Source of the DNA: Thermoanaerobaculum sp. | GTDB lineage: Bacteria > Acidobacteriota > Thermoanaerobaculia > Multivoradales > UBA5704 | Assembly (NCBI GenBank): GCA_021154885.1 | Contig: JAJKHS010000136.1 | Location: forward strand, 62,001-126,000 | Reading direction: 5' to 3' | DNA length: 64,000 bases | In this document: piece by piece, positions 4,967 through 11,031 of the stretch | Position numbering within the stretch: position 1 is the stretch's first letter | Layout of the letters: each line of letters begins with the position of its first letter | Position numbers and translations under genes: made by a program | The notes under the pieces: model-generated | The model's database searches: none | What the model saw: the letters and a program-made list of their open reading frames with translations, nothing else | Told to the model about the DNA's origin: nothing

Positions 4967-4989
4967 GCAAGAGCATGAGGGAACCTCCC

Positions 4990-5805
4990 ATGTTACCAAC
5001 CCCCGAGCTTGCCCGCCGCATCCGCCGCCACTCGGTGCTGATGACGAGCCGCGCCAACGCCTCGCACATCGGCTCGTCCCTCTCCATGGCTGATCTGCTG
5101 GCCGTGCTCTACGGTGAATTCCTGCGCTTCGATCCGCAACACCCGGACTGGCCGGACCGCGACCGCTTCATCCTGAGCAAGGGGCACGGCTGTGCGGCCC
5201 TCTACGCCGTGCTGGCCGAGACCGGCTACTTCCCCGTCGAACGCTTGGAAACCTTTTATCAGGACGGCTCGCCGCTCGCCGGACACGCCACGCACAAGGA
5301 CGTGGCGGGCGTCGAGGTGTCGACCGGCTCGCTCGGTCACGGCCTCTCGCTCGGCACCGGCATGGCGCTGGCGGGGAAGCGGGACGGCAAGGCTCACCGC
5401 GTCTGGGTTCTGCTGAGCGACGGCGAGTGTGACGAGGGCTCCACCTGGGAGCCGGCCCTCTTCGCCCCCCACCACCGGCTGGACAACCTGGTGGCGATCG
5501 TCGACTACAACAAGATCCAGAGCTTCGGCACGGTCAAGGAGGTGCTAGACCTGGAGCCGCTGGCGGACAAGTGGCGGGCCTTCGGCTGGGGCGTGCGCGA
5601 GATCGACGGTCACGATCTTGGGGCCATCCGCGAGGCCTTCGCCGCCGTGCCGTTCGTGGCGGACCGGCCGAGCTGCATCGTGGCTCATACGATCAAGGGC
5701 AAGGGCGTGAGCTATATGGAGAACCAGCTCCTCTGGCATTACCGGGCGCCGCGGGGCCAGGACCTGGAGATTGCGCTTCGCGAAATCGGAGAGGAGTCCC
5801 AGTGA
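4990..5805 (+). CDS. Transketolase, N-terminal subunit
   Basis: This is the thiamine-diphosphate-binding half of a split transketolase, about 271 residues. Motifs: SRANASHIGSSLSMADLL, SKGHGCAALYAVL, STGSLGHGLSLGTGMAL, and the ThDP/Mg site that runs from LSDGECDEGSTWE to VDYNKIQSFG. I choose the ATG at 4990 because GAGGGA lies 7 bases upstream; an in-frame ATG at 4975 would add MREPP. The stop overlaps the GTG of the C-terminal subunit (GTGA). It transfers two-carbon ketol units in the pentose phosphate pathway, in which split enzymes are well known. It lies downstream of the dehydrogenase operon but is separated from it by a large palindrome, so it is probably a separate unit. Confidence 0.92.
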   Translation: MLPTPELARRIRRHSVLMTSRANASHIGSSLSMADLLAVLYGEFLRFDPQHPDWPDRDRFILSKGHGCAALYAVLAETGYFPVERLETFYQDGSPLAGHATHKDVAGVEVSTGSLGHGLSLGTGMALAGKRDGKAHRVWVLLSDGECDEGSTWEPALFAPHHRLDNLVAIVDYNKIQSFGTVKEVLDLEPLADKWRAFGWGVREIDGHDLGAIREAFAAVPFVADRPSCIVAHTIKGKGVSYMENQLLWHYRAPRGQDLEIALREIGEESQ

Positions 5806-6722
5806 GGACCGCCTTTCTGGAGACCCTCTTCGAGCTGGCGAAGGCGGACGAGCGGATCGTCTTCCTCACCGGCGACCTCGGCTTCAGCGTCGTCGAGCCC
5901 TTTGCCCGGCAGCTTCCGAAGCAGTTCGTCAACGCCGGTGTGGCCGAGCAGAACATGACGGCCATCGCCGCCGGCATGGCGCTGTCGGGCAAGATCGCCC
6001 TCACCTATTCGATCGCCAACTTCCCGACTTTGCGCTGCCTGGAGCACATTCGCAACGACGTCTGCTATCACGAGGCGAACGTGAAGATCGTGGCCGTGGG
6101 TGGCGGCTTCGCCTACGGCGCGCTCGGAGCGAGCCATCACGCGACCGAGGAACTGGGGGTCATGCGCATGATGCCGGGGATGACGGTCGTCGCTCCGGCT
6201 GATCCGATCGAAGCGCGGCTCGCCACCCGCGCCATCGTGGCCCACCCCGGCCCCTGCTACATCCGGCTCGGCAAGGCGGGGGAGCCGAACGTCCACGAGG
6301 GACCGATCGATTTTGAGCTCGGCCGCGCCATCCAGGTGCGCGACGGCCGGGACGTCACCCTCCTTTCGACCGGCGGCATGCTCAAGACCGCTGTCGGCGT
6401 GGCCCGCCGCCTGGCCGAGCGCGGCGTCGAAGCCCGGGTGCTCAGCCTGCATACCCTGAAACCCCTGGACACGGAAGCCGTGCTCGCCGCGGCGCGGGAG
6501 ACGGGCGCGGTCGTCACCCTGGAGCAGCACAGCATCATCGGAGGGCTCGGCAGCGCCGTGGCTGAGGTCCTCGCCGAGTCGGGCCTGCCCGTGAAATTCA
6601 AGCGGATCGGCCTGCCCTCGGCCTTCTCGCCAAGGGTGGGGAGCCAGCAGTATCTGGAGGAGCAGAACGGGCTGACGGAGGAGCCGGTGCTGCGGGCGGT
6701 GGAGGGGCTGCTGGGAAGGTAG
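5802..6722 (+). CDS. Transketolase, C-terminal subunit
   Basis: This is the pyrimidine-binding plus C-terminal part of the split transketolase, 306 residues, starting at the GTG inside the GTGA overlap (VRTAFLETLFELAKADERI). Visible features are FLTGDLGFSV, FVNAGVAEQNMTAIAAGMAL with the conserved Glu of the AEQ motif that activates the cofactor, GGGFAYGALGASHHATE, and the C-terminal VVTLEQHSIIGGLGSAVAE. Together with the preceding gene it makes one transketolase. The partner arrangement is the same as in other bacterial split enzymes, where 1-deoxyxylulose-5-phosphate synthase-like sequences are the nearest relatives. Confident on family, less so on the exact sugar substrates. Confidence 0.92.
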   Translation: MRTAFLETLFELAKADERIVFLTGDLGFSVVEPFARQLPKQFVNAGVAEQNMTAIAAGMALSGKIALTYSIANFPTLRCLEHIRNDVCYHEANVKIVAVGGGFAYGALGASHHATEELGVMRMMPGMTVVAPADPIEARLATRAIVAHPGPCYIRLGKAGEPNVHEGPIDFELGRAIQVRDGRDVTLLSTGGMLKTAVGVARRLAERGVEARVLSLHTLKPLDTEAVLAAARETGAVVTLEQHSIIGGLGSAVAEVLAESGLPVKFKRIGLPSAFSPRVGSQQYLEEQNGLTEEPVLRAVEGLLGR

Positions 6723-6731
6723 TTTCGAGAG

Positions 6732-6768
6732 AAAAAAGGGGGACGGGCTCTGTCCGTAGCCCGTCCCC
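6732..6768 (-). terminator. Rho-independent terminator, minus strand
   Basis: The arms at 6739-6749 and 6758-6768 (GGGGACGGGCT with AGCCCGTCCCC) are perfectly complementary around an 8-base loop. On the minus strand the stem is followed by CC and six T, the form of an intrinsic terminator. On the plus strand it has no T tract, so it is not a good terminator for the transketolase operon, although the stem may still stabilise that mRNA's 3' end. Confidence 0.6.
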
Positions 6769-6870
6769 TGAAGGAGGCGCCGCCGCTGAGGCGGTCGTCG
6801 TGACACCCTTCTCCAGCGCAAAGGCGATGCCCGCCTTCGTCCGTTTCGGTCCTGATCGCTAACTCTTTTC
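6732..6870 (-). ncRNA. Candidate structured small RNA on the minus strand
   Basis: The gap 6723-6971 has no convincing gene. Read on the minus strand it shows stable elements in series: a 6-bp stem AAGGCG/CGCCTT (6821-6826 with 6832-6837), a CCGC/GCGG hairpin (6783-6794), then a perfect 11-bp terminator stem followed by six U. No minus-strand protein gene ends here: the next minus gene starts at 11031 and stops at 8491, beyond the activator gene. A terminator with no gene in front of it suggests a short untranslated transcript of about 100-140 nt. The 5' end is a guess; an AT-rich stretch at about 6863-6890 could hold its promoter. I cannot match it to a named RNA family. Confidence 0.35.
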
Positions 6871-6971
6871 TTTTTAGTTATTTGTGGGTTCCCACGGGCC
6901 TTGGCACGGTTGCGAAAGGGGTGTACTATCTGGGGTGGCAATGCCATACCTCGGGTGAGGAAACCATAGAC

Positions 6972-8501
6972 ATGCTCGAACGCCTCCTGGAGCTGGGTAA
7001 GAGGGTGCTCGCCGAGAGCGACCTGGACCGCGTGCTCACGGCGGCGCTCGACGGCGTCATCGAGCTGTGCGGCGCCGAGCGAGGGATGATCCTGCTCTTC
7101 GACCCGCAAGAGCCGGAGGGCGAGGTGGTGGTGGAGACCGCCCGCAACCTCGCCCGGGAGGACATCGAGCGCCCGGAGTTCGAGGTCAGTCGCGGCATCC
7201 TGCGCAAGGTGCGCTCCTCGGGCGAGCCCTTCTGGCATCCCAACGTACTGGACGATCCAGCCCTGGGGAACCGGGCGAGCGTGCTGCGGCTGCTGATCCT
7301 GTCGGTGATCTGCCATCCCATCCGGGACGGCGGTCAGATCCTGGGCGTGGTCTACCTGGACAACCGCAGCGTCGAGGGGGTGTTCTCGGAGGAGACGGCC
7401 GGGCTGGTGGCGAGCTTCTCGGAATTCATCTCGCTGGCGGCCCGCAACGCTCTCGAGCGGCGGCGGTTGCAGCAGCACATCGGCGCCCTAGCGGAGGAGC
7501 TGCGCGGGCGCTACGACTTCGGGGCCATCGTCGGGCAGGACCCGGCGCTGCTGGCGGTGCTCAAGCTGATCTCCCAGGTGGCGGACTCGGACGCCACCAT
7601 CCTCATCCACGGCGAGAGCGGCACGGGCAAGGAACTGGTGGCCCGCGCTCTCCATTTCAACAGCCGGCGGCGGGCCAAGTCCTTCGTCCCCGTCAACTGC
7701 GGCGCCCTGCCCGAGAACCTCCTGGAGTCGGAGCTCTTCGGCCACGTGCGCGGTGCCTTCACCGGCGCGGTGGCGGACAACCCCGGCTGGTTCGAGCGCG
7801 CCGAGGGCGGCACGCTCCTCCTCGACGAGGTGGGAGAGCTGACGCCGCCCCTGCAGGTCAAGCTCCTGCGGGTTCTGGAGAATGGCGAGTACTCGCGGGT
7901 GGGTAGCACGCAGATCCGGCGCGCCGACGTGCGGGTCGTGTCGGCTACCAACCGCGACCTCGCCGACCTGGTGCGGGAGGGAAAGGTGCGGCGCGACTTC
8001 CTCTACCGGCTGAACGTGGTCGAGGTGCGGCTGCCGGCCGTGCGCGAGCGGCGGTCGGACCTGCCGCTGCTGCTGCGCCACTTCCTGGCGAAGCTGGCCG
8101 GCCGTCCGGGCGGCGGCGGCGGAAAGTCCAAGCGCCTGTCGTCGGAGGCCGAGGCTCTGCTCCTCGCCTATGACTATCCCGGCAACATTCGCGAGATGCA
8201 GAACCTGCTGCAGCGGGCCGTGCTGCTGGCCGAGGGGCCGCTCATCGAGCCGCGCCACCTGCCGGAGACCCTGCGCGAGCTGCGCCCGTTGCTACCGTTG
8301 GAGTCGGAGCCCGAGGCCTCCGGCTTCCGCGAGGCCAAGCAGCGGGTGGTGGAGCGCTTCGAGCGGGACTACGTCGCCCGCTGCCTGCGCGAGGCCCAGG
8401 GCAATATCAGCCAGGCGGCTAAGGCAGCGGGCATCGACTACAAGAACTTCTACACCAAAATGCAGCAGTACGGCATCGAGGCCGGGGCGTTCAAGGCTTA
8501 G
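6972..8501 (+). CDS. Sigma-54-dependent transcriptional activator with GAF sensor domain
   Basis: The protein has 509 residues. The N-terminal GAF-type sensor spans about residues 10-165. The AAA+ sigma-54 interaction domain begins near 185, with Walker A GESGTGKE at about 214-221, the sigma-54-contacting GAFTGA at 261-266, and Walker B in GGTLLLDEVGEL. The C-terminal Fis-type helix-turn-helix is ARCLREAQGNISQAAKAAGI followed by DYKNFYTKMQQYGI. There is no receiver domain, so activity is set by the GAF ligand or a partner, not by phosphorylation. The ATG at 6972 follows GAGGAAACC; an upstream in-frame GTG at 6882 would add 30 unlikely residues. Its targets are unknown. The gene overlaps the convergent S9 peptidase by 11 bases. 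Confidence 0.93.
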   Translation: MLERLLELGKRVLAESDLDRVLTAALDGVIELCGAERGMILLFDPQEPEGEVVVETARNLAREDIERPEFEVSRGILRKVRSSGEPFWHPNVLDDPALGNRASVLRLLILSVICHPIRDGGQILGVVYLDNRSVEGVFSEETAGLVASFSEFISLAARNALERRRLQQHIGALAEELRGRYDFGAIVGQDPALLAVLKLISQVADSDATILIHGESGTGKELVARALHFNSRRRAKSFVPVNCGALPENLLESELFGHVRGAFTGAVADNPGWFERAEGGTLLLDEVGELTPPLQVKLLRVLENGEYSRVGSTQIRRADVRVVSATNRDLADLVREGKVRRDFLYRLNVVEVRLPAVRERRSDLPLLLRHFLAKLAGRPGGGGGKSKRLSSEAEALLLAYDYPGNIREMQNLLQRAVLLAEGPLIEPRHLPETLRELRPLLPLESEPEASGFREAKQRVVERFERDYVARCLREAQGNISQAAKAAGIDYKNFYTKMQQYGIEAGAFKA

Positions 8502-11031
8502 CCCCCGGTTTACCGGCCGCCGCGTCCTTCGTCTCCCCCGGCCGGTTCTTCACATACGTGTCCAGCCAGCTCGAGCTCTCCCACAGCAGATGGAGGGCCG
8601 ATTCGCGGGCCCGGTAGCCGTGGCTTTCGAAGGGGAGCACCACCAGGCGGACCGTGGCGCCGTTCCCCTTGAGGGCGTTGTAGAAGCGGTCGCTCTGGAT
8701 GGGGTCGGTCCCCGGGTTGTTGTCGGCCTGGCCGTGGACGAGGAGCAGGGGGCGATGGACCTTGTCCGCGTAGAGGAAGGGGGACATCTTCATGTAGATG
8801 TCCGAGGCGTGCCAGAAGTCGCGCTCCTCCGACTGGAAACCGAACGGCGTCAGCGTGCGGTTGTAGGCGCCGCTCTCGGCGATGCCGGCGGCGAAGAGGT
8901 CGGAGTGGGCGAGCAGGTTGGCGGTGGTGAAGGCGCCATAGGAGTGGCCGCCGATGGCGATCCGCCGCGGATCGGCCACGCCGCGCTTCACCACCTCGTC
9001 CACCGCCGCCTTGGCCGAGGCCACGAGCTGGTCCACGTAGGTGTCGTTGGGCTCCTTGTCGCCCTCGCCGACGATGGGCAGGCTGGGATTGTCCAGCACG
9101 GCGTACCCTTGAGTGAGCCACACCAGGGGCGACGACCAGGAGGCGCGGGCGAAGCGGTACGGCGAGCTGGTCACCTGGCCGGCGGCGCTGGCGCTCTTGA
9201 ACTCCTGGGGATAGGCCCACATCACCAGCGGCAGCGGCCCGTCCGCGGGCTTCCAGCCGGCCGGCGTGTAGAGCGTGCCGGTGAGCTGGACGCCGTCCGT
9301 CCGGGCATAGCGCAGCAGCTCCTTGTGGATGCCCAGGAGCTGCGGCGTGGGGTGGGGGAAATGGGTGAGCTGGCGCAGCTTGCCGGTCTTCAGGTCGCGG
9401 ACGAACCAGTTGGGCGGCTCCTCGACCGCCTCACGGCGCACCAGGACGTAGCGCCCCGCGGCGTCCAGGAGCTGCGTCGGATCCTCGAACCAGGGCGCCT
9501 CCGAGCGGAACAGGCGCCGCGGCTTCTTCGTTGCCAGATCGAGCGCGTCGAGGAACGGACGGTCCCCCTCGGTCGAGGCGCCGAGGCCGGCGAGGAAGAT
9601 CGTCCGGCCGCCTTCCGCGGTCTGGATCACCACGCGGCCCCAGGCGTTGGCGACCGTCAGCGGCTCGCCGGGATCGGAGTAGCGGTCCTCGAAGGAGCGG
9701 TCGAAGAGGAGCTCCGGTTTTGACTTTTCGCCGGCGCCGGGGCGGACGATCCAGGTGCGGGTGCGGCGCGTCTTCCACCACCTCTCGGACACCAGGGCGA
9801 GGCCGTCGTCACCCCAATTGACGCCCTCGAAACGGAACCCGAGGGTCACCAGCGGCGTGGGATCGCCCTGGAACGGGGCGGCGAGCGTGAGCACCCGGTC
9901 GCGCTCTTTGGCCTCGCGGCCGGCGTCGCCGCCGTCCAGGGCCTCCACCCAGGCGAGGGTGGCCGGGGCGTCTTCGCGCCACGAGAGGTCCCGCGGTCCG
10001 GTGCCGACGCTGCCGAAGGTGATGGGGATCTCCTCCTGGAGAGGCAGGTCGGCGACGGTGCGGACGACGTGCCCCTCCAGGTCCCACACCTCGCTGCGAT
10101 GGGGGAAACGGTTGGCGGGCACCAGGTAGGAGAACGGCTTGTGAAGCGTCTCCACCAGCAGATTGCGGCCGTCAGGCGACGGCGAGACGCTCGCCACCAG
10201 CCCCGGCCGGCCGAGGGGGGTGACCTGGCCGTCGGGCGCGATGCGGGCCACCTGCGAGGTCAGGTAGTACTCGAACAGGGCCTCGTCATAGGCGCTCTTG
10301 AGGAGGTCCTGATAGGTCCGCGCCGGCGCCATCTTGCCGCGGTTCTCCTGCAGGACGGGGCCCGCCGGCACCGCCGGGGCTGCGGGCTCGGGGCCCTGGT
10401 CCGCCACCAGGAGGGTGGCCACCAGGGAGCCCTCGCGCAGCCATTGCGGCGACGTGCCGGCGGACAGGTTGAGACGCAATGTCTGCGCGCTGCCCAGCCG
10501 GTGCGCCTGGCCCGTCGCCACCTCGGCGACCCAGAGCTCGATGCCTTCGGCACCGGTGTTGGTGAAGGCGAAGCGGGCGCCGTCCGGCGAGAAATGAACG
10601 TTCTCGATCCGCGCGCCGTCCGGCAGGCCCACGATTTTGCGCTCCGCGAGGTCCGAGAGACGCAGCAGGCGCAGCCCCGTGGCAAAGCCCGCGCGGCTCG
10701 GTCCGTGGCTGCGCGGCCGGATGCGCAGCCCGCCCAGGCGCAGCTCCCGCTCCGCCAGCTCGGCGATGGGCGGCAGGCTGGGCAGGTCGAGCAGCAGCAT
10801 CCACTCCCGCCGGGGATCGAGGCGCACGCCGGGAGTCGGCGGCGCGTCCACCAGGGCCACCAGGGCCGGCGCCGGCGTGCGGTAGAGGCTGGCGGTGCTG
10901 TCCGCAGTGTTCGCGGACGTGGGCGTCGTGGGCGCGGTGGCGGCGTGAACGGCGAGGGTGGGGGCCAGGGCGAGCAGCAGGAGCAACGCGAGTAGCCCGG
11001 CGCAGGACTTGGCGAATCGTGGGGAAGGCAT
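8491..11031 (-). CDS. Secreted S9-family (prolyl oligopeptidase-like) serine peptidase
   Basis: The protein has about 846 residues with a signal peptide (a basic start, then LLALLLLLALAPTLAVHA), so it is exported. The middle is a beta-propeller-like region with sequences such as VHFSPDGARFAFTNTG. The C-terminal alpha/beta-hydrolase domain carries nucleophile Ser about 697 in IAIGGHSYGAFTTA, the acid in LLVHGQADNNPGTD, and His in FESHGYRARES. The layout and these motifs match the glutamyl endopeptidase / acylaminoacyl peptidase branch of family S9. Two ATGs are 6 bases apart. The ribosome-binding AGGAGG is immediately before the first and 6 bases before the second, so I place the start at 11031, not 11037. 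Role inferred: periplasmic or extracellular peptide degradation. Confidence 0.9.
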   Translation of the reverse strand: MPSPRFAKSCAGLLALLLLLALAPTLAVHAATAPTTPTSANTADSTASLYRTPAPALVALVDAPPTPGVRLDPRREWMLLLDLPSLPPIAELAERELRLGGLRIRPRSHGPSRAGFATGLRLLRLSDLAERKIVGLPDGARIENVHFSPDGARFAFTNTGAEGIELWVAEVATGQAHRLGSAQTLRLNLSAGTSPQWLREGSLVATLLVADQGPEPAAPAVPAGPVLQENRGKMAPARTYQDLLKSAYDEALFEYYLTSQVARIAPDGQVTPLGRPGLVASVSPSPDGRNLLVETLHKPFSYLVPANRFPHRSEVWDLEGHVVRTVADLPLQEEIPITFGSVGTGPRDLSWREDAPATLAWVEALDGGDAGREAKERDRVLTLAAPFQGDPTPLVTLGFRFEGVNWGDDGLALVSERWWKTRRTRTWIVRPGAGEKSKPELLFDRSFEDRYSDPGEPLTVANAWGRVVIQTAEGGRTIFLAGLGASTEGDRPFLDALDLATKKPRRLFRSEAPWFEDPTQLLDAAGRYVLVRREAVEEPPNWFVRDLKTGKLRQLTHFPHPTPQLLGIHKELLRYARTDGVQLTGTLYTPAGWKPADGPLPLVMWAYPQEFKSASAAGQVTSSPYRFARASWSSPLVWLTQGYAVLDNPSLPIVGEGDKEPNDTYVDQLVASAKAAVDEVVKRGVADPRRIAIGGHSYGAFTTANLLAHSDLFAAGIAESGAYNRTLTPFGFQSEERDFWHASDIYMKMSPFLYADKVHRPLLLVHGQADNNPGTDPIQSDRFYNALKGNGATVRLVVLPFESHGYRARESALHLLWESSSWLDTYVKNRPGETKDAAAGKPGAKP

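Follow-up and report, generated by a model that had tools for sequence, protein, structure and literature searches.

The minus strand between positions 6806 and 6732 of the window (the entire 64,000-nucleotide stretch of Thermoanaerobaculum sp. DNA analyzed here) probably harbors a non-coding RNA gene of ≈75 nt, which would be transcribed by the σ54 form of RNA polymerase under the control of the adjacently encoded activator, bound at an upstream element. The support, all of which comes from sequence, is an intrinsic terminator, conservation that is limited to islands, the spacing between promoter and RNA, an element that several loci have in common at 108–125 bp from the promoter, and the presence of RpoN and Hfq genes. 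The argument relies mainly on comparison of the window's own genome (G000) with two other genomes of the same order, G003 and G022.

An Intrinsic Terminator on the Minus Strand

An earlier note on this DNA had described a perfect 11-bp stem followed by U6 on the minus strand. This structure is present at 6739–6768, with stem arms at 6739–6749 and 6758–6768, an 8-nt loop, and a tail consisting of a C and then T6 at 6737–6732. On the plus strand, there is no T-run after the stem. The hairpin begins 10 bases past the stop codon (6720–6722) of a plus-strand transketolase gene. (Transketolase is split here into two genes, for the N- and C-terminal halves, at 4975–6722 of the window, following 2-oxoacid dehydrogenase-like genes; the stop codon is that of the C-terminal half.) The observation that no minus-strand gene precedes the terminator was also borne out, in that no recognizable gene was found there; a minus-strand open frame of 579 aa (5739–7478) lies opposite the genes for transketolase and the activator. 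Past the terminator, the minus strand carries no further gene and faces five genes of the plus strand.

A general terminator scan of 5000–9000 yielded 2 sites, against 2.0 expected from shuffled sequences, so that a “terminator-like” character is not significant in itself. Under a strict definition (a perfect arm of at least 7 bp, a loop of 3–10 nt and at least five T among the next eight bases), the hairpin at 6739–6768 was the sole site on either strand of the 64-kb window (1–64,000), and no sites with an arm of at least 9 were found in 20 mononucleotide shuffles of the window. These shuffles, like those used below for island conservation, shared words and promoter scores, preserved only the single-base composition. 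A single strict terminator in 64 kb suggests that this genome may rarely use intrinsic terminators. A repetitive extragenic palindrome was considered and rejected, since the exact hairpin occurs once in 8.2 Mb and the RNA body once in the genome.

Extent and Folding of the Predicted RNA

The predicted small RNA occupies 6732–6806 (minus strand, ≈75 nt), with the 5′ end placed at 6806 ± 2 nt from the position of the promoter. When folded from this start, the RNAs of G000 and G003 both form a small CCGCC-UCARC-GGCGG hairpin, a linker, and then the terminator. In the window, the small hairpin is CCGCC-TCAGC-GGCGG (6780–6794, minus strand), and G003 has the same stem with the loop TCAAC. The linker CGCCTCCTTCA (6769–6779, minus strand) is a candidate site for pairing with Shine–Dalgarno sequences; its stretch CGCCTCCT is the same in G003 and is mostly unpaired in these folds.

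The RNA body folds better than shuffled sequences in both genomes, with z-scores of −3.4 and −2.8. For the longer region 6725–6880, the fold of the minus strand beat 199 of 200 shuffles (z = −3.1) and that of the plus strand 198 of 200 (z = −2.5); with both strands folding this well, folding alone does not identify the strand.

Two additional hairpins upstream of the terminator had been proposed previously. Both the AAGGCG/CGCCTT stem (6821–6837) and the CCGCC/GGCGG stem (6780–6794) exist in the window, but only the latter is kept in G003. The AAGGCG/CGCCTT stem is not retained there as such, although RNAalifold, applied to the two sequences, drew a shifted stem over this stretch. The stretch precedes the RNA and forms part of the predicted promoter. 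In the terminator stem of G003, nine pairs are retained, one is altered on both sides, and one has become a G-U pair. Between G000 and G003, all 28 of 28 pair cells are kept, one pair having changed on both sides and another on a single side, but 236 of 500 shuffles did as well, and since only two sequences were available, the pair counts carry no statistical weight.

Conservation and Distribution

When 6600–7000 was compared by blastn with the window's own genome and 39 relatives, the one strong non-self match was in G003, a member of the same family but of another genus (77% identity over window positions 6732–6831, E = 1e-8). Weak matches (E up to 1) occurred in all 40 genomes; the best of these besides G003, with E = 2e-4, corresponded to the portion of the query that belongs to transketolase. 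Aligned between G000 and G003, the RNA body is identical in 59 of 76 columns, a level reached by none of 1000 shuffles. The promoter stretch (23/37 identical) and the element stretch (22/37) were each matched by four of 1000 shuffles. By comparison, the spacer between promoter and element is identical at 48 of 103 positions (534 of 1000 shuffles as good) and the DNA past the terminator at 47 of 98 (627 of 1000). At the sequence level, conservation is therefore restricted to three islands, the RNA body, the promoter and the element, with the spacer and the flank beyond the terminator lying outside them.

Loss of the stems in relatives, together with the lack of a minus-strand transcript, had been named in the earlier note as an outcome that would speak against an RNA; in G003, both the terminator with its U-run and the CCGCC/GGCGG stem are kept. 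The suggestion of a small RNA is thereby strengthened: the terminator, the U-run and one extra stem persist in another genus, away from transketolase.

A model of the RNA (R1) found it in two of 148 genomes of the class, G000 and G003, at 134 and 114 bits. Among 396 genomes drawn from the phylum, a draw that did not include G003, the model gave one match, in the window's own genome. Matches at 29–30 bits in G012 and G268 were rejected as chance occurrences, because they overlap long gene-like open frames and break several pairs. Short matches in G001 (L177 and L178) were likewise rejected; neither scored above 17.3 bits, and L178 lies within a long open frame. A core pattern allowing up to three mismatches gave raw matches in 29 of 72 genomes, with exact matches only in G000 and G003. 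The locus was not found in two genomes of the same genus (82% and 93% complete), and no match was found in phage records. No Rfam family, including Qrr and GlmY/GlmZ, reached its gathering score in the window, and a search of loci L058 and L059 gave only two weak, unrelated matches (E up to 1), both in L058 and none in L059.

The σ54-like Promoter

A σ54-like −24/−12 site, CGGGCATCGCCTTTGCG, is located at 6817–6833 on the minus strand, with the right spacing from the RNA, and is aligned with the site CTGGCACCGAGTTTGCC in G003, which is canonical and was the top-scoring σ54-like site on the minus strand of that 3-kb locus (L003). The window site is weak when taken alone, departing from the consensus at the T of TGG and the C of CAC. 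The corresponding locus of G022 (L053) has TTGGCATGAAGCATGCC as its best σ54-like site, ahead of a divergent protein gene. The scores of these sites were reached by 375 of 5000 shuffles for the window, 8 for G003 and 74 for G022. Scoring was based on a simplified consensus, which agrees with the one given in PMC4641369. A simple σ70 scan, which detects only close matches, revealed no promoter-like site on the minus strand between 5000 and 9000. An A/T-rich tract (6862–6886) lies between the promoter and the element in the window and could be a bend or IHF-like site; it is not conserved in G003.

The Adjacent Activator and Its Relatives

Divergent from the predicted RNA is a gene (6972–8501, plus strand) for a one-component bacterial enhancer-binding protein (bEBP) with the GAFTGA motif and GAF, AAA+ and Fis-type HTH_8 domains (Pfam PF01590, PF00158 and PF02954), the presumed regulator of the RNA. 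Of 71 genomes of the order, three (G000, G003 and G022) had matches to the GAF part at E = 1e-20 or better, and a GAF-domain search of genome contigs returned two loci, those of G003 and G022. In G003, the same activator adjoins the RNA, its GAF part being 61% identical to that of the window. On the other side, G003 has no adjacent transketolase; instead, a gene for a protein kinase lies there on the minus strand, the same strand as the RNA, ≈80 bp past the terminator. The G022 ortholog (L053:1283–1500, contig C126 of G022) has the promoter and the inverted element, but these are associated with a divergent protein gene and no small RNA. In the leader of this protein gene, there is a hairpin of stable appearance, GCCGAGCCC/GGGCTCGGC, and the leader also contains the word GACAACGACC, which is found in the G003 RNA as well. 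A gene for RpoN was present in 5 of 5 genomes, and one for Hfq in 3 of 3.

The earlier note had also linked the RNA to the σ54 activator. The activator does appear to matter; the form of the connection, which had been left unstated, would be a divergent σ54 promoter with an element that recurs at three activator loci. The alternative suggestion of an antisense leader gained no support, as the predicted RNA (6806–6732) falls short of both the transketolase stop (6720–6722) and the activator start (6972).

The Upstream Element

The candidate activator-binding site, GGTGGCAATGCCATACCTCGGGTG, lies at 6934–6957 (plus strand), and a degenerate second copy with two mismatches follows 20 bp on, at 6954–6968 (plus strand). 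Within the element, the 16-nt word at 6942–6957 recurs exactly, but inverted, in G022; the longest words in 2000 shuffles did not exceed 12 nt. Between G000 and G003, the longest exact word shared in the upstream region is 7 nt, and the G003 element therefore rests on a spaced pattern, GGTGNNWWTGCCATA (6934–6948 in the window), which was derived from the three activator loci. The element centers are located 108, 108 and 125 bp from the first base of the promoter at these loci. In a search of seven genomes, the pattern had six exact sites, against one for the reversed control.

The sole further exact copy of GGTGNNWWTGCCATA in the window's own genome, on another contig (L069), had not been used in building the pattern. 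It lies 111 bp from a canonical σ54 site, TTGGCACTGCCGTTGCC, with a score of 16.7 that was reached by 17 of 5000 shuffles. This site fronts a gene whose 581-aa product is hydrophobic at its N-terminus, matches nothing in Pfam or NCBIfam, and is probably secreted. Together, the element, promoter and gene span L069:1381–1515 and L171:2199–4131 on contig C131.

The exact sites at L067 and L071 have no fitting promoter, nor do three more exact sites found in G000 with a looser pattern, GGTGNNNWTGCCATA. The wider element scan covered 104 loci, consisting of all 48 matches in G000, all 45 in G003, 10 of 39 in G022 and one in G007. With one mismatch allowed, the numbers of sites compared to the reversed control were 48 vs. 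29 in G000, 45 vs. 16 in G003, and 39 vs. 42 in G022. Seven one-mismatch sites had a σ54-like site with a score of at least 14 at 60–200 bp, the best of which (15.2) was at background level. On one strand, the element reads ATGGCA, and start-codon use may thus explain part of the pattern: the ATG is in frame at the G022 activator, and at L069 the frame is only 24 codons. At L071 (579–1634, G022), the MANPP start of a transposase-like frame coincides with the exact element copy and is likely a start codon.

Alternative Explanations

The RNA could be real but transcribed from an ordinary σ70 promoter, the −24/−12 match in the window having arisen by chance. Consistent with this, the window site is not significant alone (375/5000) and deviates at the T of TGG and the C of CAC. 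However, the scan for close σ70 matches on the minus strand of 5000–9000 came up empty, and the promoter stretch is conserved (4/1000 shuffles) and canonical in G003, making this explanation unlikely. Alternatively, the sequence might be the 5′ leader of a downstream gene on the same strand, in which transcription is terminated prematurely (an attenuator), and might persist in the window as a relic. The kinase gene ≈80 bp beyond the terminator in G003 would suit this arrangement, as would the protein gene behind the equivalent promoter in G022, but the RNA and its terminator are conserved in the window even though no minus-strand gene follows, and we consider an attenuator quite unlikely.

We also considered that the hairpin is a mere terminator or a DNA or RNA structure serving the neighboring genes, either at the transketolase 3′ end or as insulation of the activator, with no gene of its own. 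Its start 10 bases past the transketolase stop and the folding of the plus strand agree with such a role. In G003, however, transketolase is not adjacent and the neighbors are divergent, so that the hairpin terminates neither of them; moreover, the plus strand lacks a T-run, and conservation extends to the CCGCC/GGCGG stem and the linker. A purely structural role is accordingly very unlikely. A translated minus-strand sequence, with the conserved stretch encoding part of a protein, is highly improbable. One common phase does read alike in the two genomes (TTTASAAAPPSG... and TTTASTAAPPQG..., ending in PVPLF), because the two gaps in the alignment total six bases, and in G003 this phase continues without a stop as far as the kinase gene. 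In the window, by contrast, it remains open over 6858–6598 but none of the start codons ATG, GTG and TTG precedes the core, it would have to cross the terminator hairpin and U6, and the long frame at 5739–7478 uses another phase.

Proposed Mechanism and Comparison with Known Systems

In our preferred reading, a σ54-dependent small RNA, the GAF–AAA+–Fis activator, upon signal perception by its GAF domain, would bind the element at ≈6934–6957, and contact σ54 RNA polymerase at 6833–6817 (minus strand), leading to the divergent transcription of the RNA, which would end at the hairpin at 6739–6768 and its U6. The RNA may then act in trans, most likely by base-pairing of its CUCCU(U)C linker with the ribosome-binding sites of its targets, in which Hfq might assist. 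Such pairing is suggested by the complementarity of the conserved linker, CGCCUCCU(U)CA, to Shine–Dalgarno sequences. Since the same arrangement serves a protein gene in G022, the output of the promoter seems to be exchangeable. It is tempting, though doubtful, to go further and view the GAF-sensing one-component activator and its divergent σ54 promoter as a portable module of the Acidobacteriota, in which the output has been swapped during evolution (a protein in the family of G022, a dedicated RNA in that of the window's genome and G003), and in which the gene for the probable secreted protein at L069/L171, with the same element and promoter, might be co-induced with the RNA.

If correct, the locus would define a new small RNA family in Thermoanaerobaculia/Holophagales for which the promoter, the upstream element and a candidate regulator have all been located. 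The circuit would be of an already described type, newly seen in bacteria whose small RNAs of this sort are poorly characterized. It would also offer a test of whether dedicated bEBP–sRNA pairs have arisen independently of the gammaproteobacterial ones. In the open-licence literature, we found nothing that joined Acidobacteria, sRNA and σ54, and for Thermoanaerobaculia and small RNA only unrelated toxin–antitoxin work.

In Desulfovibrio, bEBP genes are found divergent from σ54 promoters with the consensus tGGcacg / tTGCt, and six such genes are named for D. vulgaris in PMC4641369; the terms “sRNA” and “small RNAs” do not occur in the text of that paper. The divergent layout in the window is alike, and the G022 locus belongs to this usual protein-gene type, but the window promoter would front a non-coding RNA. 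Expression of GlmY in Enterobacteriaceae is σ54 dependent (PMC3162934). The window RNA would likewise be under σ54 control, but it has no Rfam match to GlmY/GlmZ.

A parallel in logic involves the Qrr RNAs, of which qrr1 is divergent from luxO. As described in PMC10162802, the Qrr small RNAs of Vibrionaceae are transcribed by σ54 RNA polymerase with a bEBP (LuxO or SypG) that acts from upstream activating sequences. The window RNA differs in having no Rfam Qrr match and a different upstream element, in an activator with a GAF sensor domain rather than a response-regulator receiver, and in its occurrence in Acidobacteriota-related genomes rather than vibrios. What it would share with the LuxO/Qrr system as described in PMC10162802 is the combination of σ54, a bEBP and, if the candidate element is bound by the activator, an upstream activating sequence.
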